Origin: Deltaproteobacteria bacterium
GTDB taxonomy: Bacteria; Desulfobacterota; Binatia; Binatales; Binataceae
Assembly: GCA_021794015.1 (NCBI GenBank)
Contig: JAJYRQ010000001.1
Coordinates: forward strand, 103,448 to 167,447
Direction of reading: 5' to 3'
Length of the DNA stretch: 64,000 nt
Shown here: piece after piece, positions 49,608 through 60,129 of the stretch
Layout of the letters: each line of letters begins with the position of its first letter
How positions within the stretch are numbered: the first letter of the stretch is position 1
The notes under the pieces: model-generated
What the model was told of the DNA's origin: nothing
The model's input: the letters and a program-made list of their open reading frames with translations, nothing else
Databases searched by the model: none
Program-made: the position numbers and the translations under genes

Positions 49608-50398
49608 GCTGCCCCGGCGGCCTGTGAGGCGTCTTTGCTGGCCGGGCGCTAAACGACACAAGCAGGCGCCCGGGGCTGCGGGGGCGCGGCTCGGCACCAA
49701 GCCCGAGGGCTCGCGATCTCTTCGCGCACCAAAGCGGGCCGAGGCTCAGGATGCGGCTTAGTCGGAGGCGGCGGGGGCGGCGAAGCGGCGGTCGTACTCT
49801 TCGTGCAGCCGCCGCTCGGCCGTCCAGAAAAGTGTAGCGCGCCCATTTCTTGCCGCCGCGTACGCTCGCGAGCAGAGAAGAGCAAGACGGCTGTATGGTC
49901 CCGAGGTAAGCCGACGCCGGGCCTCGGGGTCGGCAGTCGCCTCGGTTCAAGCCGGCTATTGACGGCTGCTCTTGACGGCCAGCTTGGCCTGTCGCTCGGC
50001 GTGGGCCTGCTCGTCGGCGGCATCGTATCTGTTGCGGCTTCAGCCTTGATTGCCAAGACGCACCGGCCGAGGTCTGTCCTGGCGGCCGGTTACTTGCGGC
50101 TATGTGTCTTTCAGCACAAGCGGCGTGCACAGGGAACATGGCCGAGGGGGACTGCAAGGGAGCTCGCTCTAGGCCCGCGAGAAGAACCTTCGTTCCCGAT
50201 CGTCTGCCCGAGGATCGCGCACCTATGCTCAAAGCGGAGGCAGCCTAAGCGTAGTCAAGCCTGGTTGGTTGCTTGTGCTGACCGGAAGAGGGCAGGTCGG
50301 GCGAGGGTCCGGAGGCGGCGCCTAGGGCGCGCAAAAACTGAGGGGAGTGCCGGCCGGCTACCGTTGTCCATGGGTCAGGAGCGGGACTGAGCCGAGTG
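49608..50398 (+). other. 791-bp region of gene fragments, no intact gene
   Basis: No complete gene is present. It contains the composite fragment at 49749-49955. A further minus-strand piece around 49960-50045 reads DAADEQAHAERQAKLAVKSS before a stop and looks like the tail of a lost gene. The rest, up to the sigma-54 promoter, has no recognisable content. Confidence 0.6.
49749..49955 (-). pseudogene. Composite of SPOR-gene 3' end and a trpE-like 5' piece
   Basis: 49749-49822 is identical to 59281-59354 (the 3' end of the SPOR gene plus flank) at 73 of 74 positions. 49824-49955 resembles codons near the start of trpE (47163-47296) at roughly 70 percent; one minus frame still reads SVRGGKKWARYTFL. 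The two pieces abut in the same orientation but out of frame. Neither can be functional. Confidence 0.8.
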
Positions 50399-50414
50399 TG
50401 GCACGTTCGTTGCT
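50399..50414 (+). promoter_or_regulatory. Sigma-54 (-24/-12) promoter upstream of amiC
   Basis: TGGCACGTTCGTTGCT matches the sigma-54 consensus TGGCAC-N5-TTGC(A/T) at every defined base, with the required GG-N10-GC spacing. It lies 78 bp before the amiC ATG. Sigma-54 control suits an amide nitrogen-source locus under NtrC-type regulation. I did not find a clear NtrC site upstream. Confidence 0.8.
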
Positions 50415-50430
50415 CGGGTGACTGTTGCTG

Positions 50431-50459
50431 TTGACATGGAGCCCGCGCTATGGTAACGA
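50431..50459 (+). promoter_or_regulatory. Second candidate promoter (sigma-70-like) for amiC
   Basis: TTGACA, a 17-bp spacer and TAACGA lie just downstream of the sigma-54 box. The -10 is weak but similar to the candidate trp promoter. It could give a basal level of AmiC and AmiR. Confidence 0.4.
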
Positions 50460-50491
50460 CGCTAGGATGGCATAAGGCAGGAGGTCAGCTT

Positions 50492-51628
50492 ATGCGGGCC
50501 ATCCCTCGCCGAACGTCGGAACCTTGGCGGGTCGGCGTGCTGTTTTCGCGCAGCGGATGCACTTCCGTGATCGAGGAGACGCAGCTTCGCGGCACGCTGC
50601 TCGCGGTGGAAGAAATCAACGCCTCGGGTGGAATCCACGGTCGCGAGGTCGTTCCGATCGTGTACGACCCCGCCTCAGACCCGGGCCTTTTCGCGTCTTG
50701 TGCCAAGCGCCTGATGGTTGAGAACGGGGTGACGACAATCTTTGGCTGTTATACCTCGAGCAGCCGCAAGGCGGTGATACCCGTCGTCGAGCGCCTCAAC
50801 GGCCTGCTCTGGTACCCGACACCGTACGAAGGTTTCGAGTTTTCACCCAACGTAATTTACACTGGTCCGGCGCCAAACCAGAACAGCGTCGCGCTCTGCC
50901 GTTTCTTGATGCAACATTACGGAAGCCGCTTCTACCTTATCGGGTCCGATTATGTCTATCCGCGCGAGTCCAACCGGGTAATGCGGGAGCTGGTCCGTGA
51001 CAACAGCGGTAGTGTGGTTGGCGAAACCTATCTGAGCCTTCGCGCCCAACATCGTGACTTTTTGCCGGTTCTGTGCGAAGTGCGCCGGCTACAGCCGGAC
51101 GTTATTTTTTCAACAGTCGTTGGCGAGTCCACGGCCTGCCTGTACCAACGCTACAGCGATACGGGTCTTGACCCGAGGCGGATGCCCATCGCAAGCTTAA
51201 CCACGTCGGAGGCTGAGGTCATGGCAATGGGTGCTGACGTCGGGCAAGGGCACATCACGGCGGCCCCTTATTTCGAGTCGGTTCGCACCCCGGCGAACTC
51301 CTCGTTCGTGGCTTGCTACCGCAAGCGGTTCGGAAACGACCAACCGACCAACATGTGCGCTGAGGCGGCTTATTTCCAGGTACACCTGTTTGCCAAGGCG
51401 CTGGCCGAGGCCAATTCGCTCGAAACCGACATCTTGCGCTCCGCGGTTCTCGGGCTGGAATTTGATGCGCCCCAGGGGAGGGTGTCGGTCAACGAGACCT
51501 ACGGGCACGCCGACCTTTGGACCCGGATCGGGCGGGTCGACAGCCGGGGCGGATTCGAAGTTATCGAGCAGTCGCGGGCCCAGGTGCGCGCCGACCCTTA
51601 CCTGATCGAATCCGGAAGGGCGCTTTGA
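50492..51628 (+). CDS. amiC: AmiC-like cytoplasmic amide sensor / negative regulator
   Basis: 378 residues from the ATG at 50492, set by AGGAGG six bases upstream. It has the type I periplasmic-binding-protein fold but no signal peptide, as expected of AmiC, which works in the cytoplasm. Blocks include WRVGVLFSRSGCTSVIEETQ, TTIFGCYTSSSRKAVIPVVE, GLLWYPTPYEGFEF, IGSDYVYPRESNRVM and MGADVGQGHITAAPYFESV. In Pseudomonas AmiC binds and silences AmiR until an amide displaces it. It shares motifs with the transporter's binding protein at 54.2 kb. Confidence 0.9.
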   Translation: MRAIPRRTSEPWRVGVLFSRSGCTSVIEETQLRGTLLAVEEINASGGIHGREVVPIVYDPASDPGLFASCAKRLMVENGVTTIFGCYTSSSRKAVIPVVERLNGLLWYPTPYEGFEFSPNVIYTGPAPNQNSVALCRFLMQHYGSRFYLIGSDYVYPRESNRVMRELVRDNSGSVVGETYLSLRAQHRDFLPVLCEVRRLQPDVIFSTVVGESTACLYQRYSDTGLDPRRMPIASLTTSEAEVMAMGADVGQGHITAAPYFESVRTPANSSFVACYRKRFGNDQPTNMCAEAAYFQVHLFAKALAEANSLETDILRSAVLGLEFDAPQGRVSVNETYGHADLWTRIGRVDSRGGFEVIEQSRAQVRADPYLIESGRAL

Positions 51629-51652
51629 CGCTGCTGAATCGAAAGCGAGGGC

Positions 51653-52276
51653 GTGCCGTTGTCCAATACCATCGGGAACTATCCGACCCCGGAAGCAAGC
51701 TGCCAGATGCGTGCGGAGTTCACTAATCTCGACGTCGTCGTGGCCACCAGGCGCGACGACGAGGGCGAGTTTCTCGTTCGCACCCTTCAGCGTGCGCGCG
51801 CCCGCGTGCGGTATGTTTGGCCGTTGCCCGACCGCTTGCCCGAGGACCCTGACGTGGTCTTTTGCGATCTAACGCCGGAACTGCCCATGCGGATACCGTG
51901 GGTGCCGGGTGAGCCCAAAGCGGCGCTAGCCGTGATCGTGGGGCCTGGCCCGATTGCGGAGTTGGACCTTCTCATAAATAGCGCCCCCGACGCGGTTCTC
52001 CATCGCCCTTTCACGAGCAGCGCTGTGGTGGTGAGCCTGATGCTCGCCCGCAGCCATTTTGCCTACGAGCGGCGGTTACGCTGGCGCATAAACAAATTGG
52101 ATGAAAGCCTTCGCCTGATGCGCGGCGTTGAGCGGGCTAAGGAGATTCTGATGCGCACCCGTCAGATGTGCGAGGGGGAAGCGTACCGGTTTATGCGGCA
52201 GCAGGCGATGAGTCGGAGGGTGTCGATAACGACAGTGGCAAGAGCTATTGTTGACTCGCACGAGCTCTTGAGCTAG
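51653..52276 (+). CDS. amiR: AmiR-like ANTAR-domain transcription antiterminator
   Basis: A 207-residue protein from a GTG, with an alternative Met at residue 19. A receiver-like N-domain lacks a phosphoacceptor pattern (LDVVVATRRDDEGEFLVRTL; LRTASGAL-like loops absent). A coiled-coil linker (LRWRINKLDESLRLMRGVER) leads to a C-terminal ANTAR domain (about 140-200: RAKEILMRTRQMCEGEAYRF, MRQQAMSRRVSITTVARAIV). ANTAR proteins bind paired hexaloop RNA hairpins. Such hairpins begin 30 bases after the stop. Confidence 0.92.
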   Translation: MPLSNTIGNYPTPEASCQMRAEFTNLDVVVATRRDDEGEFLVRTLQRARARVRYVWPLPDRLPEDPDVVFCDLTPELPMRIPWVPGEPKAALAVIVGPGPIAELDLLINSAPDAVLHRPFTSSAVVVSLMLARSHFAYERRLRWRINKLDESLRLMRGVERAKEILMRTRQMCEGEAYRFMRQQAMSRRVSITTVARAIVDSHELLS

Positions 52277-52305
52277 GGTTAAGCCTCAAGCAAGAGTCGG
52301 GGCAC

Positions 52306-52347
52306 GGGCGGCAATGGCGCCGCCCTTACAAGCGGGCAAGGGAGCCC
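52306..52347 (+). promoter_or_regulatory. ANTAR-type dual-hexaloop RNA antiterminator (P1 and P2)
   Basis: P1: GGGCGGC (52306-52312), loop AATGGC, GCCGCCC (52319-52325), a perfect 7-bp stem. P2: GGGC (52334-52337), loop AAGGGA, GCCC (52344-52347). Both loops have six bases with A at position 1 and G at position 4, the defining ANTAR features. The linker is 8 bases. The 3' strand of P2 is the first part of the terminator's 5' arm, so P2 and the terminator exclude each other. Confidence 0.85.
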
Positions 52348-52385
52348 TTCTGGGAGCCACCTCGGTGGCTTCAGAAGGGCTTTTT
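52343..52385 (+). terminator. Rho-independent terminator in the amiE leader
   Basis: GCCCTTCTG (52344-52352) pairs with CAGAAGGGC (52372-52380). An inner GCCAC/GTGGC stem sits above it, and TTTTT follows at 52381-52385. It lies between amiR and amiE and is the predicted target of AmiR antitermination. Confidence 0.92.
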
Positions 52386-52963
52386 GCGTTTAGAGCGCAG
52401 AATTCCTATGGAACGCACGAAGCATCCGGCAGTCGGCGCACGCGCCGTGCCGGAAAGGCCAACGCCTCTACCGGGACGGTGCCGGAGCAGTCGTTCTCCC
52501 GCGTGCAGTGACGCTGTAGTGAATGGGGGGCTTCGGTCTCGGCTGCTGGCCAGGGAGGCCCGCCATGGTCGAGCAGGGGCGGGAGGTTCCCGGCCTCCTC
52601 GAGGTGGCGGCCACGACCGCGCGCACATCCGCCGCAGGCAGGTGGACGCGCCTCGGGCTTGGCATGGCGTAGCGGCGCATCGTGGCACATCCAGGGGGCG
52701 ATGGCAGGGTGGGCCCCACCGGGGCGGCGGCGCGCACGTAAGCGAGGCGGCAAAGACGGGTCTCGCGGCTGCTGGGCGGACGCCACGCGTCGCCCTTCGC
52801 CGTGCGGTCACGCCGCCCAGCTTCGGCGGGACGGGGTCGGGCGCGCACAGGACGCCCGGTTGCGCCGCGCCTGCGCGGCCCCCTCCGTAAAGCGCCGGTC
52901 GTGCAACCTTACCGGTGACTCTCTTGGGACAACGGCAACAATCGACACGGGGAGTACACACTT
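52386..52963 (+). other. 578-bp untranslated-looking leader between terminator and amiE
   Basis: Very GC-rich. Open frames exist on both strands but all give Arg/Pro/Ala-rich, family-less sequence. No tRNA or known riboswitch fold was recognised. It could be a decayed insertion, or hold another RNA element or amiE-proximal promoter. The ribosome site for amiE (GGGGAG) lies at its end. Confidence 0.5.
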
Positions 52964-53992
52964 ATGAGGCACGGAGATATTTCATCCAGCAAGGATTGTG
53001 TAGGCGTCGCGGTTGTAAATTACAAGATGCCTCGCTTGCATACCAAGGCCGAGGTAATCGAAAACGCCCGTCGGATCGGCGAAATGATCGTGGGGATCAA
53101 GACCGGACTGCCGGGCATGGACCTGATCATTTTCCCTGAATACAGCACCCACGGAATCATGTACGACCAGAAGGAGATGATGGAGACTGCATCCGTCGTC
53201 CCCGGCGAGGAGACCAAGATTTTCGCCGCCGCCTGCCGGGCGGCAAGCACCTGGGGCGTTTTCTCGCTCACCGGCGAGCGCCACGAGGACCATCCGAAAA
53301 AAGCACCGTACAACACCCTCATTCTGATGAACAACCGGGGCGAGATCGTCCAGAAGTACCACAAGATCAATCCCTGGTGCCCGATTGAGGGCTGGTACCC
53401 GGGCAACTGCACCTTCGTCTCCGAGGGTCCCAAAGGTCTGAGAGTCAGCCTTATCGTCTGCGACGATGGGAACTACCCGGAAATCTGGCGTGATTGCGCG
53501 ATGCGCGGGGCGGAGCTCATCGTGCGCTGCCAGGGCTATATGTACCCGGCCAAGGAGCAGCAAATCCTGGTGGCCAAGGCGATGGCCTGGATGAACAACT
53601 CGTACGTGGCGGTGGCGAACGCTGCCGGTTTCGATGGCGTATATTCCTACTTCGGTCATTCCGCGATCATCGGGTTCGACGGCCGAACGCTCGCCGAGTG
53701 CGCGGAGGAAGAGAACGGCGTGCAATACGCCGAGCTGTCAGTGTCGATGATTCGCGACGCCCGGCGAAACTGGCAGTCACAGAACCACCTCTTCAAGCTT
53801 CTTCACCGGGGTTACACGGGCAAGATTCTCTCCAAGGAGAGCCCCCTAGGCGTTGCTGACTGCCCCTTCGAGTTCTACCGGACGTGGGTGACCGAGCCTG
53901 ACAAGGCCCGAAAGCAGGTCGAGAGCTTCACGCGGCAGAGCGTAGGGACCCCGGAGTGCCAGATTCCGGGAATCCCGGCCAAAGCCGCCTAG
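52964..53992 (+). CDS. amiE: Aliphatic amidase
   Basis: A 342-residue nitrilase-superfamily protein that is closely similar to Pseudomonas AmiE throughout. The catalytic triad is in place at the family numbering: Glu59 (FPEYS), Lys134 ([14 protein letters not shown]) and Cys166 ([13 protein letters not shown]). [13 protein letters not shown] and [14 protein letters not shown] are also conserved. It hydrolyses short aliphatic amides such as acetamide or propionamide to acid and ammonia. It is cytoplasmic and hexameric in relatives. It precedes its probable importer genes. Confidence 0.97.
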
Positions 53993-54155
53993 ACCAACGG
54001 CTAGTGCGCGGCCGCAGGTGGCCGCCGCCGTGAACGGAAGCGCAGTCTGGGTCGGATTCGCCAACGAGCCAGGAGCGTAGGCATGGAAAGTCAGAAGCGC
54101 ATTGCGGCATAAACCGAATCTTACAATTCGAGACTGTGGTCTCGAGGAGCAGACT

Positions 54156-55472
54156 ATGAGAAAGATTAAGCGCCGAACCTTCCTGCAAAGCTGCGCAGCC
54201 GGCATGGGCGGCATCCTGGCCGGCGGCACGGCACCCTATTTCTTCACCCGTAGCATCGCCCGAGCAGCCGAGGGAGCTACCATCAAAGTCGGCATCCTGC
54301 ATTCGCTAAGCGGCACTATCGCGATTATCGAGTCGTCGCTGCACAACGCCGAGTTGCTCGCCATCGAAGAGATAAACGCCAAGGGCGGAGTGTTAGGGAA
54401 AAAGCTTCAGCCGGTCGTCGAGGATCCGCAGTCCATGGTGCAGGTGTTTGCGGAGAAAGCCAAGAAGCTCCTGCTCGAGGACAAAGTGGTAGCCGTGCTC
54501 GGCTGCTACACCTCAGCGAGCCGCCAGTCGGTGCTGCCGGTGTTCGAGCAACATAACGGCGTCCTGCTTTATCCGACCCTGTACGAGGCGCAGGAGTGCA
54601 GCAAGAACTGCTTCTACACCGGCGCGGTACCCAGCCAGCAGCTCGACGACTTCGTCCCATGGATAATTAACACCCTGGGGCGCAAGAAGTTCTATCTGAT
54701 TGGCGCCAACTATATTTATCCCAAGGAGACCAACCGTGAGGTAAAGGCGCTGCTGCACAAACACGGCGGCCAAACGGTCGCCGAGGAGTACTCGCCGCTC
54801 GGCGCCACGGAGTTCTCCACTAACATCAATAAGATAGCCTCCAGCGGTTGCGATGTCGTGTTCTCGGACCTGGTCGGCGACCAAATCGTCGCTTTTTACA
54901 AGCAGTACCGCGAGTTTGGCATCACCGCGAAGGACATCCCGATCTGCTCGCCCATCACAACCGAGCAGGAAATCGCGGCGATGGGGCCGGAAAACGCGGC
55001 CGGCCATTACACCTCGTTCGACTACTTCCAGAGCGTCGGTACACCGCAGAACAAGGTGTTCGTCGATCGGTACAAAGCCAGGTATGGCAAGAATGCGGTC
55101 ACCAACGCGGTGATGCAGGCAGCCTACTTTTCGGCGTTTTTCCTCGCCCAGGCGATCGAAAAAGTAAGGTCGACCGATGCTGACGCGCTGATTTACGAAG
55201 GGCTGCCGGGCCAAGAGTTCCTGGCGCCGGAGGGCTTGGTGAAAATCGACGAGAAGAACCATCACACCTGGCTCTGGCCGCGAATCGGCCGGGCCAACGA
55301 GCAAGGCCAGTTCGACGTCGTCTGGACGCGCAAGAACTGGGTGCGTCCGCAGCCGTGGGTGCCGTATCTGTATCCGAACAAGACGTGTGACTTCAGCGAT
55401 AAACGGGTGGTTGAACGGCTGAAGAAGCCGTGGAGCCAGGAGAAGGACCGGTCGGGAACGATAAACATGTAG
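54156..55472 (+). CDS. urtA: Amide/urea ABC transporter substrate-binding protein
   Basis: 438 residues from the ATG at 54156 (GAGGAG upstream). It starts with a Tat signal (KIKRRTFLQSCAAGMGGIL), so it is exported folded. The binding-protein fold is of the UrtA/FmdD type: VGILHSLSGTIAIIESSLHN, VVAVLGCYTSASRQSVLPVF, LLYPTLYEAQECSKN, YFTGAVPSQQ-like region and IGANYIYPKETNREVKALL. UrtA binds urea and FmdD of Methylophilus binds short amides. Next to amiE, amides are the likelier ligand. Confidence 0.92.
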   Translation: MRKIKRRTFLQSCAAGMGGILAGGTAPYFFTRSIARAAEGATIKVGILHSLSGTIAIIESSLHNAELLAIEEINAKGGVLGKKLQPVVEDPQSMVQVFAEKAKKLLLEDKVVAVLGCYTSASRQSVLPVFEQHNGVLLYPTLYEAQECSKNCFYTGAVPSQQLDDFVPWIINTLGRKKFYLIGANYIYPKETNREVKALLHKHGGQTVAEEYSPLGATEFSTNINKIASSGCDVVFSDLVGDQIVAFYKQYREFGITAKDIPICSPITTEQEIAAMGPENAAGHYTSFDYFQSVGTPQNKVFVDRYKARYGKNAVTNAVMQAAYFSAFFLAQAIEKVRSTDADALIYEGLPGQEFLAPEGLVKIDEKNHHTWLWPRIGRANEQGQFDVVWTRKNWVRPQPWVPYLYPNKTCDFSDKRVVERLKKPWSQEKDRSGTINM

Positions 55473-55617
55473 TGCGCGGCGGCGGGCAAACGCAGGCATG
55501 GGGCCATCAAAGCGGGCGGCGCAGCGTGGCGCCGGCGAAGCAGCCGGTGCACGGGCGCTGCCCGGGGGGAGGGCGGTTGCGTAGCGCCGACGAGTTAGGT
55601 AGCGGAGTGTGCAGGCG

Positions 55618-56490
55618 ATGACGCAATCGATCATCACGCAGTTTCTGAGCGGCTTCAGTGTCGTGGCGATTCTGATCATCGCTGCCCTCGGCTTGGCCAT
55701 CATTTTCGGCGTCGCCGGAGTGATCAATATGGCGCACGGCGAGTTCATTATGGTCGGCGCGTATACCGCAGCCGTCGTCGGCAAGCTAGGCGGCAACACG
55801 CTTGTCGCCATCCCGGTCGCTTTCGTCACGGTGGGGTTGCTCGGGCTGCTGATCGAGCGAGGCATCGTGCAATGGATCTACGACCGGCCTTTGGAGACGC
55901 TGCTCGCCACCTGGGGTGTGGGAATCATTCTCCAAACGGTGACGAAGCTCATTTTCGGCCCCGAGCTTTATTATGTGGGCAGCCCGAAATTCCTCGCGGG
56001 GGGCTTCCGGGTCATCGGCCGCCTGCCCTTTCCCTGGTATCGTCTCTTCCTTGTTATCGTGGCGATCCTGCTGCTCGCGCTGGTGTTTCACGTGATTTTC
56101 AAGACCAACCTGGGGCTCGAGGTGCGGGCGGTGCGGCGCAACCGGGCGATCGCCGGCTGCCTTGGCATCGACACGGCTCGCGTCGACATGGCGGTGTTCG
56201 TGTTCGGCTCGGGGCTCGCCGGGATAGCCGGCGCGGTGCTGGCGCCGATCAAGTCGGTGTCCACAGCCATGGGGTTCCCCTACGCGGTTGATTCCTTCAT
56301 GGTGCTGGTGCTGGGCGGGGTGGGCAACCTGTGGGGCGTGGCGGCGGGCGCGGGGCTGATTGGCGAAGCCGAGACGGTGCTGTCGTTTATTTTTAACAAC
56401 GTGATCGGACGGCTGTTGGTGTTTCTGTTCATCGTGGTCACCATCCGGTTGGTGCCGAAAGGGATTTTCGGCTACTACGAGCGGCGCTGA
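55618..56490 (+). CDS. urtB: Amide/urea ABC transporter permease, UrtB type
   Basis: About 290 residues with eight or so transmembrane helices. IIAALGLAIIFGVAGVINMA, then HGEFIMVGAY, is the branched-chain/urea permease signature, and ALETLLATWGVGI-like, GLEVRAVRRNRAIAGCLGID and FMVLVLGGVGNLWGVAAGAG are present. ATG 55618 or a GTG at 55609 could start it. It is half of the membrane channel, paired with UrtC. Confidence 0.92.
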   Translation: MTQSIITQFLSGFSVVAILIIAALGLAIIFGVAGVINMAHGEFIMVGAYTAAVVGKLGGNTLVAIPVAFVTVGLLGLLIERGIVQWIYDRPLETLLATWGVGIILQTVTKLIFGPELYYVGSPKFLAGGFRVIGRLPFPWYRLFLVIVAILLLALVFHVIFKTNLGLEVRAVRRNRAIAGCLGIDTARVDMAVFVFGSGLAGIAGAVLAPIKSVSTAMGFPYAVDSFMVLVLGGVGNLWGVAAGAGLIGEAETVLSFIFNNVIGRLLVFLFIVVTIRLVPKGIFGYYERR

Positions 56491-56545
56491 AGGCAGCGCC
56501 GGAGCATGGGCCGCGCCATCGGTTGTCGAACAGAGAGTAGGGTGC

Positions 56546-57733
56546 ATGAGCGGGATCGCACTGGCGGACGCTATTACCAAGAAGCCCGTACGGCGAGTCA
56601 GGCGGACGCCGATGCTACCGCGCTGGGCGCTGATAGGTGGCGCGGGCGTGGTAGCGTTGATTGGTAGCTATCCTTATTACGGCTCGAACGGCTATATGCT
56701 GTCGCTGCTGGGCAAGTTTCTGTGCTACGCGGTCTTCGCGCTCAGTATCGACCTAATCTGGGGCTTCACCGGCATCTTAAGCCTCGGCCAGGCGGTTTAT
56801 TTTGGCGTGGGGGCGTATTTCGTCGCGGTGTCGCTCAAGTTGAACTACACGCTGACGCACCCGACGCGCTACGGGGGCAAAATTCCCGACTTCATGGAGT
56901 GGAACGGACTGACTGCGGTGCCGAGTTTTATGGCGCCGCTGATGAGCTTGCCGTTCGCCATTGTCTGTGCGCTTGTTGTGCCGACGCTGCTGGCTCTGCT
57001 GTTCGGCGTCATCACCTTCAAGCGTCACATCTACGGGGTCTATTGCGCTGTGATTACCCTTGCAGAGTCGCTGATCCTGCAGGATTTCATCATCGAGTAC
57101 CAGGCTTACACGGGGGGCTTTAACGGAATCACGGACTATTCCAACTATGTGGGCGCGGCTTTCCTCTGGTTCATCCTGGGGGTGACCGCAGTGTTCTTTC
57201 TGACGGGGCGCGTTCTGACGCACTCGCGGCTGGGTACCGTGTTGAAGTCAATCGGCGACAACGACGTGCGGGCCGAGTTCATGGGCTACAACGTTGCCAA
57301 CTACCGCATTTTCGTCTTCTGTGTGTCGGCCTTCATGGCGGGGGCGGCGGGCGCGATGTATGCGGCGTGGGTTGGGCTGGTGTCGTTCCTCGACACAGGT
57401 CCGGTCTACTCGGTCGAGGCGGTAATCTGGACGGCGGTAGGGGGCCGAGGGACGATTATAGGTCCTTTCGTCGGCGCCTTCTTGGTCAAGGGCGCCGAGT
57501 TCTTTTTAAGCGGTACCCTGGCGGAATGGTGGCAGATACTGGTGGGCGGGCTGTTCATCTTCGTCGTGCTTGTGCTGCGCGACGGTATCGTCGGCACGAT
57601 CGCCAACTGGGTGCGCCGGCGCAGTGCGGGGAGTTTCCGCCAGATTGCGCAGGAGGCCGACCGCAAGGCGCACGACCGCCAGCGCGATTGGCAGGCTGAG
57701 GGGGCGACGCGGCACGGCGAGGAGGCGCGTTGA
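56546..57733 (+). CDS. urtC: Amide/urea ABC transporter permease, UrtC type
   Basis: A 395-residue protein with about ten transmembrane helices. ALSIDLIWGFTGILSLGQAV, then YFGVGAYFVA, is the second-permease signature. RLGTVLKSIGDNDVRAEFMG is the coupling loop facing the ATPases. EAVIWTAVGGRGTIIGPFVG follows. The long charged C-terminal tail (about 40 residues) is typical of UrtC. The gene follows urtB by 55 bp. Confidence 0.92.
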   Translation: MSGIALADAITKKPVRRVRRTPMLPRWALIGGAGVVALIGSYPYYGSNGYMLSLLGKFLCYAVFALSIDLIWGFTGILSLGQAVYFGVGAYFVAVSLKLNYTLTHPTRYGGKIPDFMEWNGLTAVPSFMAPLMSLPFAIVCALVVPTLLALLFGVITFKRHIYGVYCAVITLAESLILQDFIIEYQAYTGGFNGITDYSNYVGAAFLWFILGVTAVFFLTGRVLTHSRLGTVLKSIGDNDVRAEFMGYNVANYRIFVFCVSAFMAGAAGAMYAAWVGLVSFLDTGPVYSVEAVIWTAVGGRGTIIGPFVGAFLVKGAEFFLSGTLAEWWQILVGGLFIFVVLVLRDGIVGTIANWVRRRSAGSFRQIAQEADRKAHDRQRDWQAEGATRHGEEAR

Positions 57734-57796
57734 GCGCGCCCTGGCGCGGGCAGAGAAAACCGAAGGTTCTCACGGGGGCGAGCGAGAGGAGGAGAA

Positions 57797-58543
57797 GTGG
57801 CGCTTCTGCTTGAGGTCGAAGGGCTGACCGCGAAGGTCTCCGGGTACACTATCCTCGACAGTTTGGATTTCAGTCTCGAGGAGGGGGAGCTGCGCGTGCT
57901 CGTGGGTCCCAACGGCGCCGGCAAGACGACGCTCATGTCTATGATAAGCGGGCAGTTCAAGCCCTACGCCGGAGCCATCCGTTTCGCCGGCCAGAACATC
58001 ACCGGATGGCCGCCGGACGCAGTCTTCCAGAGCGGCATCAGCCGCAAGTTCCAAGTACCAAACGTGTACGAGACGCTGTCGGTGTTTAACAACGTCATGG
58101 TCTCGCTGAAGGGCCGGCGCAAGGTATTCGCCACGCTGTTCCAGAAGCTTGGCGGCGAGGAGGCGGACCGCATCTGGGAAATCCTCGAATTCGTGGAGTT
58201 GGCCGACAAAGCTAACGAGTCGGCCGACACCCTGTCTCACGGAGAGCGGCAATGGCTCGAGCTTGGCATGCTTATCGCTTCCGACCCTAGGCTCTTGTTG
58301 CTCGACGAGCCGACCACCGGCATGACCGAGGACGACAAGCGCAAGACTGCCGAACTTATCCGCAGGATTGCCCAGAGCCACACGGTCCTGTTGGTCGAAC
58401 ACGACATGCACGTGGTCCGGCAAATCGCCAGGAAGGTGACCGTCCTCCATATGGGACGGCGGTTGGCCGAGGGCCCGCTCAGCGAGGTGATGAGCGATCC
58501 CATGGTACGTGAGGTCTATCTCGGAAAGGGCAAGTTCCAGTGA
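57797..58543 (+). CDS. urtD: Amide/urea ABC transporter ATP-binding protein, UrtD type
   Basis: A 248-residue ATPase. Walker A is VGPNGAGKTTLMSMI, the signature is TLSHGERQWLELGM (the LSHGE form is characteristic of UrtD/LivG urea-type ATPases), Walker B is LLLLDEPTTGMTEDD, and the switch is LLVEHDMHVV. ISRKFQVPNVYETLSVFNNV is the LivG-like Q-loop region. GTG of the next gene overlaps the stop. Confidence 0.94.
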   Translation: MALLLEVEGLTAKVSGYTILDSLDFSLEEGELRVLVGPNGAGKTTLMSMISGQFKPYAGAIRFAGQNITGWPPDAVFQSGISRKFQVPNVYETLSVFNNVMVSLKGRRKVFATLFQKLGGEEADRIWEILEFVELADKANESADTLSHGERQWLELGMLIASDPRLLLLDEPTTGMTEDDKRKTAELIRRIAQSHTVLLVEHDMHVVRQIARKVTVLHMGRRLAEGPLSEVMSDPMVREVYLGKGKFQ

Positions 58544-59238
58544 GCCTGCAGGTCAGCGCGATCGACACCTTCTACGGGACGAGCCATATCCTGCACGGCG
58601 TTTCGCTGGAGATTGGAGAGGGCGAGCTCCTTGCGGTGCTGGGGCGCAACGGCGCCGGCAAGACCACGTTGCTGCGCAGCATCACCGGCATTAACCCGCC
58701 GCGCCGGGGCCTGGTCCGCCTCGATGGGGTAGACCTTAAGCGCCTCAAGTCGCACGAGCGGACGCGGCTCGGAGTCAGCTACGTACCCCAGGGGCGCGAG
58801 ATCATCCCCGACCTCACCGTGGCTGAGAACATCTATGTCGCGCTGCTAGGAAAAGGCCGCAAGCGCGGCAGGGTGCCCGACCTTGTTTTTGACTATTTCC
58901 CGGCACTGCGACCGCTCGTCGACCAAAAGGGAGGTACGCTCTCGGGCGGGCAGCAGCAGCAACTCGCCATCGCCCGGGCGCTCGTGCAGGAGCCCAAGTT
59001 CCTGCTCATGGACGAGCCGACGGAAGGGCTGCAGCCTTCGGTCGTTGAGGAAGTCGAGCTGATCATCAAGCGCATCCCAAGCGAGCGCAAGTGCGCCGTG
59101 CTGCTGGTCGAACAGAACCTCGATTTCGTGCGCGACATCGCCCAGCGTTTCGCCATCCTCGACACCGGCCGGATCGTCCGCGAGGGCGACGTCGCCGGGT
59201 TGACCAACGAAGTAGTCCAGCGTCACCTCTCGGTCTGA
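58540..59238 (+). CDS. urtE: Amide/urea ABC transporter ATP-binding protein, UrtE type
   Basis: A 232-residue ATPase from a GTG coupled to urtD (GTGA overlap). Walker A is LGRNGAGKTTLLRSI, the Q-loop is VSYVPQGREIIPDLTV, the signature is TLSGGQQQQLAIARAL, Walker B is FLLMDEPTEGLQPS, and the switch is LLVEQNLDFV. It is the LivF-like partner of UrtD and last gene of the amide locus. Confidence 0.94.
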   Translation: MSLQVSAIDTFYGTSHILHGVSLEIGEGELLAVLGRNGAGKTTLLRSITGINPPRRGLVRLDGVDLKRLKSHERTRLGVSYVPQGREIIPDLTVAENIYVALLGKGRKRGRVPDLVFDYFPALRPLVDQKGGTLSGGQQQQLAIARALVQEPKFLLMDEPTEGLQPSVVEEVELIIKRIPSERKCAVLLVEQNLDFVRDIAQRFAILDTGRIVREGDVAGLTNEVVQRHLSV

Positions 59239-59254: not shown

Positions 59255-59289
59255 GTTAGACGCGGGCTGGCGAAGCCCCCGGATGCGGC

Positions 59290-60129
59290 CTAGTCGGAGG
59301 CGGCGGGGGCGGCGAAGCGGCGGTCGTACTCTTCGTGCAGCCGCCGCTCGGCCGCTTCAGCCTCGGCCTTGGTCCGGTACGGTCCCACGGAGAGGCGATA
59401 CCAGGTTTCGCTGCCGACCGTCGCGGGCGTCAGGTGCGCTTCGAAGCCGAGGCCGACCAGGCGCTGATAGAGTTGCTTGGCGGCAGCGCGGTCCATCCGC
59501 TTGCCGATCCAGACGGTGTAGGGCTTGCGCCGCGCCTCGGCGTGCGTCGGGTGCGGCGCCGCGCCGCGCGACGCCACCGAGGAAGGCGCGCCGGCGCGGG
59601 CCCGCAGCGTCGCGGGAGCATGACGCTCGGGCTGAGGCGCTCGCGCCGCGACCGGCGCGGCCGAGGCCGCCCGGCTGGGTCGCGGGCCAGAGGCGGACGC
59701 CGAGCTCATCTCACCGGCTGCGGGTGGCGGGCCGAGAGCCGCGCGCGCGCTTTGAGGCCGCTGGCTGTTTGCTGGCGAGGAAATGGTTCCCCGGGGGCGT
59801 GACGCAGATTCGGTTGCCCGTTCCGGGCTGCGGCTGGGAGCGCCGGTCTCGCCCAAGGCGGGACCGGAGGGGCTGCTCGGCCGTAGCGCAACCGCCGGCG
59901 CCGCGGTCGGCACCGGCGGTAAACCTTCGCCACCGGGTGCGAGGCTGGTGCCGGCGCTCGCGCTGGGCGGCGGCTCAACGGTATAGGTGCTCGCCAGCCC
60001 GCCGGGTGGTTCTTCAACGCGGCCAAGCTGGTAGCCGGAGACCAGCCCGAGCATGAACACGGCGCCGGACAGCCCCGCGATGGCGAGCAGGATAAGCAGC
60101 CCGCCCCCTGGCCCAATTTCGAATCGCAT
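59290..60129 (-). CDS. SPOR-domain membrane protein
   Basis: A 279-residue protein. One transmembrane helix (LLILLAIAGLSGAVFMLGLV) near the N-terminus is followed by a long Pro/Ala/Ser-rich linker (about 40-200) and a C-terminal SPOR domain (PYTVWIGKRMDRAAAKQLYQ; YRLSVGPYRTKAEAEAAERR). SPOR domains bind denuded septal peptidoglycan, so the protein is probably periplasm-facing and linked to division. It is 9 bp from argS. A near-perfect copy of its 3' end lies at 49749. Confidence 0.87.
   Translation of the reverse strand: MRFEIGPGGGLLILLAIAGLSGAVFMLGLVSGYQLGRVEEPPGGLASTYTVEPPPSASAGTSLAPGGEGLPPVPTAAPAVALRPSSPSGPALGETGAPSRSPERATESASRPRGTISSPANSQRPQSARAALGPPPAAGEMSSASASGPRPSRAASAAPVAARAPQPERHAPATLRARAGAPSSVASRGAAPHPTHAEARRKPYTVWIGKRMDRAAAKQLYQRLVGLGFEAHLTPATVGSETWYRLSVGPYRTKAEAEAAERRLHEEYDRRFAAPAASD

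Follow-up and report, generated by a model that had tools for sequence, protein, structure and literature searches.

Dual-hexaloop ANTAR antiterminators, that of amiE among them, were described in 2012 from Actinobacteria, Bacteroidetes, Firmicutes and Proteobacteria (PMC3369931, PMC3369936). In Pseudomonas aeruginosa, AmiC binds AmiR and lets it go once it holds an amide; the freed AmiR works on the amiE leader, whose dual hexaloops have A as their first and G as their fourth base (A1/G4) and whose second hairpin, P2, overlaps the terminator (PMC3369931, PMC3369936). The window analyzed here, a 64-kb stretch of DNA from an uncultivated lineage, has the same sensor, regulator and enzyme families, and its leader resembles that of P. 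aeruginosa as published. The layouts differ: in the Pseudomonas amiECBRS operon the leader stands before amiE, with the regulators behind it (PMC3369936), whereas here amiC-amiR, with a sigma-54 consensus before amiC, comes ahead of the switch, and a urt-like transporter lies downstream. The features of the locus are as follows.

50399-50414, + strand: sigma-54 (-24/-12) promoter consensus TGGCACGTTCGTTGCT, zero mismatches, preceding the likely amiC ATG at 50492
50492-51628, + strand: amiC-like amide sensor, periplasmic-binding fold; ATG 50492 preceded by AGGAGG; longer ORF from 50450
51653-52276, + strand: amiR-like antiterminator, AmiR_N pseudo-receiver and C-terminal ANTAR domain
52306-52325, + strand: hairpin P1, 7-bp stem GGGCGGC/GCCGCCC, hexaloop AATGGC (A1, G4)
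52334-52347, + strand: hairpin P2 (antiterminator), 4-bp stem GGGC/GCCC, hexaloop AAGGGA (A1, G4)
52343-52385, + strand: intrinsic terminator ending in a U tract, -28.8 kcal/mol; cannot form together with P2
52964-53992, + strand: amiE, aliphatic amidase (presumed regulated gene); closest solved relative an aliphatic amidase; NCBIfam aliphatic amidase
54156-55472, + strand: UrtA-like amide/urea ABC transporter binding protein, twin-arginine-type leader
55609-59238, + strand: urtBCDE-like ABC transporter permeases and ATPases, on the same strand

Because the same parts of the same family are present and P2 and the terminator are mutually exclusive, the locus most likely (probability roughly 0.9) carries an AmiC/AmiR-type transcription antitermination switch before amiE. 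A sequence-only reading had come to the same AmiR/ANTAR switch, and regulator, sensor, amidase, dual hexaloop and overlapping terminator are indeed all present and recur jointly in relatives. Its stress on a complete switch outside Pseudomonas overstates the novelty, as dual-hexaloop ANTAR leaders from outside that genus were among those reported in 2012 (PMC3369931, PMC3369936). A layout with the regulators upstream is also known, for nasTS (PMC5424462). The switch is a well-supported further example of a known mechanism and not a new kind. The evidence for it consists of the sequences themselves, of pairings that exclude each other, of conservation that includes compensatory changes, and of co-occurrence across genomes; RNA binding by AmiR, the ligand, promoter use and read-through are what we infer.

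In the proposed mechanism, transcription would start, most likely at the sigma-54 promoter before amiC, and run through amiC and amiR. Without amide, AmiC would hold AmiR as it does in P. aeruginosa, the terminator at 52343-52385 would form, and RNA polymerase would halt past amiR. With a short-chain amide on AmiC, AmiR would be freed, and its ANTAR dimer would bind the A1/G4 hexaloops of P1 and P2; P2 would then sequester the GCCC that the terminator needs beside the U tract, and polymerase would continue into amiE and probably on to the urt-like transporter genes. Gene order is a trait of layout and is inessential to this mechanism.

Other ANTAR systems share parts of the arrangement. In Paracoccus, the sensor and ANTAR genes (NasS/NasT) likewise stand upstream of a hairpin leader, that of nasA, with general nitrogen control as proposed here (PMC5424462), but the signal is nitrate instead of amide, and the sensor and operon are others. 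Klebsiella nasF/NasR combines ANTAR antitermination with Ntr-controlled initiation, a likeness to the layout proposed here (PMC5424462, PMC3369936), but NasR is a single protein that senses nitrate itself, without a separate sensor. The Enterococcus faecalis eut leaders have the dual hexaloop and a P2 overlapping the terminator, and the ANTAR contact residues of EutV are largely common to the window AmiR (PMC8934654); they differ in their two-component phosphorylation signal and in the presence of several leaders per cluster. What the window adds are regulators that lie upstream of the switch, and hence not behind the terminator they control, a perfect sigma-54 consensus before amiC, and a cluster apparently acquired horizontally. 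It also brings the AmiC/AmiR amidase switch into an uncultivated lineage, with an anatomy that is clear at base level.

Regulators, amidase and ligand

The best solved relative of the AmiC-like sensor is P. aeruginosa AmiC (E 6e-101). Inspection of its sequence reveals no evident signal peptide; the difference from the UrtA-like protein is as expected and would fit a cytoplasmic sensor and a periplasmic binder. AmiR has PF21332 and PF03861, both above cut-off, and P. aeruginosa AmiR as its best solved relative; it is the sole ANTAR protein found in the genome, encoded directly before the leader. Strand 3 of the window AmiR ends in an Asp that relatives do not retain. The hexaloop contacts reported for EutV, Tyr164, Lys149, Glu160, Arg168 and Arg175 (PMC8934654), align with Tyr178, Lys163, Glu174, Arg182 and Arg189 of the window AmiR, and Tyr178, Glu174, Arg182 and Arg189 are invariant in a seven-sequence alignment. 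EutV Arg142 is not conserved.

The urtBCDE-like genes are probably in the same operon as amiE, and the fact that the transporter scores as urtBCDE would be in line with a switch that senses urea or another amide-like nitrogen compound and not short aliphatic amides, as would the combination of similar regulators with other hydrolases in related plasmid loci. We consider this unlikely, however, as the sensor shares YPTPYEGF with wild-type P. aeruginosa AmiC, and the enzyme encoded downstream is an aliphatic amidase.

The sigma-54 consensus and the spacer before amiE

The sigma-54 pattern TGGCACG-N4-TTGCW has two perfect matches in the 3.33-Mb genome, one of them before amiC, and near-perfect copies stand at the same place before amiC in two related loci (L006 and L007). 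The genome also encodes RpoN. Sites with up to one mismatch occur at background (45, compared to 41 in the control), so only the perfect, positionally conserved match was used. Its presence is suggestive of a likely start of the amiC-amiR transcript. More tentatively, and at slightly less than even odds, the locus may act as a regulator-first AND gate: a sigma-54-dependent amiC-amiR message would be made only under nitrogen limitation, AmiR would act on the 3' end of its own message, and synthesis of amidase and transporter would require both nitrogen shortage and amide. If the sigma-54 reading is true, nitrogen limitation would govern initiation and amide would govern elongation, as in Klebsiella nas (PMC5424462).

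The switch had earlier been placed between the regulator and amidase genes, and its position there stands; it does not adjoin amiE, which begins 578 bases past the U tract. This spacer (52386-52963; 578 nt) is 71% GC, is not coding-like, and exceeds the whole amiR-amiE gap of relatives (about 230-360 nt). Such a length and composition would be compatible with a working switch in which a second promoter within the spacer mainly feeds amiE, and antitermination only adds read-through from amiCR. This would seem improbable, and a little more so than urea as the ligand, given that a limited scan found no sigma-70-like promoter before amiE and that the best sigma-54-like match within the spacer has three mismatches. 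A second copy of the spacer (52395-52955) was sought in the genome, and tandem repeats in 50000-54200; neither was found.

Leader anatomy, folding and conservation

The antitermination reading depends on two alternative structures that can be followed base by base. Read directly, P1 consists of GGGCGGC (52306-52312), the loop AATGGC (52313-52318) and GCCGCCC (52319-52325), and P2 of GGGC (52334-52337), the loop AAGGGA (52338-52343) and GCCC (52344-52347). The 5' arm of the terminator, AGCCCTTCTG (52343-52352), pairs with CAGAAGGGCT (52372-52381); the inner stem is GCCACC/GGTGGC, and the T run occupies 52381-52385. The GCCC at 52344-52347 is common to the 3' strand of P2 and the base of the terminator 5' arm. 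The leader thus has the parts that define the dual-hexaloop class: two hairpins with six-base loops, a short linker, and a P2 whose 3' strand overlaps the stem of an intrinsic terminator. These positions bear out the sequence-only reading in its two six-base loops, AATGGC and AAGGGA, each with A1 and G4, and in its placing of the 3' strand of the second hairpin within the 5' arm of a U-tailed terminator. Its distance of 30 bases from the ANTAR gene to the hairpins should be 29, the amiR stop codon ending at 52276. A search against the Rfam 15 covariance models, up to E 5, returned no relevant family match for the leader, and a promoter/terminator scan overlooked the terminator at 52343-52385, probably on account of the mismatch in its stem.

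The leader folds 3.5 standard deviations below dinucleotide shuffles (z -3.5), with the terminator formed. In the full leader the terminator fold is favored by about 10.6 kcal/mol (-52.4 versus -41.8). Folding of partial transcripts indicates that P1+P2 forms in the nascent RNA prior to the terminator 3' arm: it is the minimum-energy fold of the RNA ending at 52352 (-24.1 kcal/mol) and the centroid fold of the transcript ending at 52355. Because the full leader favors the terminator while the RNA to 52352 folds as P1+P2, the switch should be off by default, with a brief transcriptional interval in which P2 can be caught. The stability of P1+P2 alone is ordinary compared to shuffles (z 0.27), and the case therefore rests on arrangement and conservation and not on folding energy.

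We scanned for chance occurrences of the arrangement, specifying A1/G4 in both loops, a P1 of at least 5 bp, a P2 of at least 4 bp and a linker of 3-25. In a Markov background, A1/G4 dual hexaloops alone turn up roughly once in each 64-kb strand. Combined with an overlapping T-tailed terminator they occur zero times in 3.2 Mb of simulated Markov sequence, and exactly once in the 64-kb window, at 52306-52385.

AmiR, AmiE and a strong leader match co-occur in the same 4 of the 41 genomes of the order; one further genome (G015) has a weak leader match (E 0.04) without AmiR or AmiE. AmiR identity in the other three genomes is 60-73%, and A1/G4 is found in both loops in all four. The leaders in L003/L006, L004/L007 and L005 retain both A1/G4 loops and the overlapping terminator. 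A wider sample of the phylum yielded two genomes only, both previously found. Covariation over homologous loci, which had been proposed as a check on the switch, is borne out by compensatory changes in the stems of both hairpins: among 21 copies, 5 of 9 pairs vary on both sides and 96% of pair cells hold a standard pair, and the covariation of 0.282 (shuffled 0.167) was reached by 0 of 500 shuffles, in an alignment that was fitted to the model structure, which favors covariation, and in which two thirds of the rows are model seeds. When only the seed alignment is counted, 4 of 9 pairs vary on both sides. It could still be supposed, in keeping with the ordinary stability of P1+P2 and the 578-nt gap, that the terminator merely ends an amiC-amiR operon, the hexaloop hairpins being accidental and amiE having its own promoter, but the absence of the arrangement from simulated sequence, the conserved loops and stems with their compensatory changes, and the joint presence with AmiR in 4 of 41 genomes make this very improbable.

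Beyond the order, plasmid loci of alpha- and betaproteobacteria (Rhizobiales and a Roseateles-labelled record; L036, L037, L038, L040) have the same genes as the window, in the order amiC-amiR-leader-urtABCDE-amiE, with motif and overlapping terminator 3' of amiR. They differ in having amiE at the operon end, additional motifs ahead of amiC or of other genes, and leader units in tandem, each pair with two terminators, past amiR (L036 8571-8765, L037 8572-8716, L038 8569-8714, L040 8569-8711); some loops of these units have G1 and others A4. An ANTAR motif and terminator also precede amiC in three loci (L040 6537-6579, L036 6477-6517, L039 14559-14600), so the regulators are probably autoregulated in the plasmids that have this motif, but not in the window. 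A covariance model seeded with 14 leader copies recovered extra, non-seed copies before amiC or other cluster genes, each leading into a T-tailed terminator-like hairpin. Among more distant relatives (L043-L045, L047-L051, L053) no model match was seen past the ANTAR gene, though several have a terminator there. A search of the window's genome with model R1 gave no second site above noise (next best E 1.5), and hence no wider regulon was found; nor was a second ANTAR unit or a model match seen in the window's 578-nt spacer.

Hand counts over the 21-copy alignment give G4 in 17 of 21 P1 loops and 16 of 21 P2 loops, and A1 in 19 of 21 and 11 of 21, respectively; position 1 of P2 is a purine in 19. 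As some alphaproteobacterial copies have G at position 1 or A at position 4 of P2, the wider set contains exceptions to A1/G4. The extent to which the loop rule loosens can be seen in the plasmid relatives, in agreement with a report that EutV touches G4 and lacks a specific contact to A1 (PMC8934654).

Boundaries of the cluster

In 18 related loci trpE adjoins a SPOR-domain gene; here ~12 kb, including the ami cluster, lies between them. Because the two genes adjoin in those loci, the ami/urt cluster appears to have been inserted between them. The separation of trpE from the SPOR-domain gene, the flanking copy of SPOR-gene sequence, and presence in only 4 of 41 genomes suggest that the ami cluster was gained horizontally.

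A near-identical direct repeat (49734-49822 and 59266-59354) flanks the whole ami/urt cluster, with 74 nt at 98.6% within an 89-nt match. On the right the repeat coincides with the 3' end of the SPOR-domain gene, and the left 74-nt copy is at 49749-49822. Just inside the left repeat, at 49826-49956, lies a decayed trpE-like gene fragment of about 73% DNA identity, with the peptide SVRGGKKWARYTFL.
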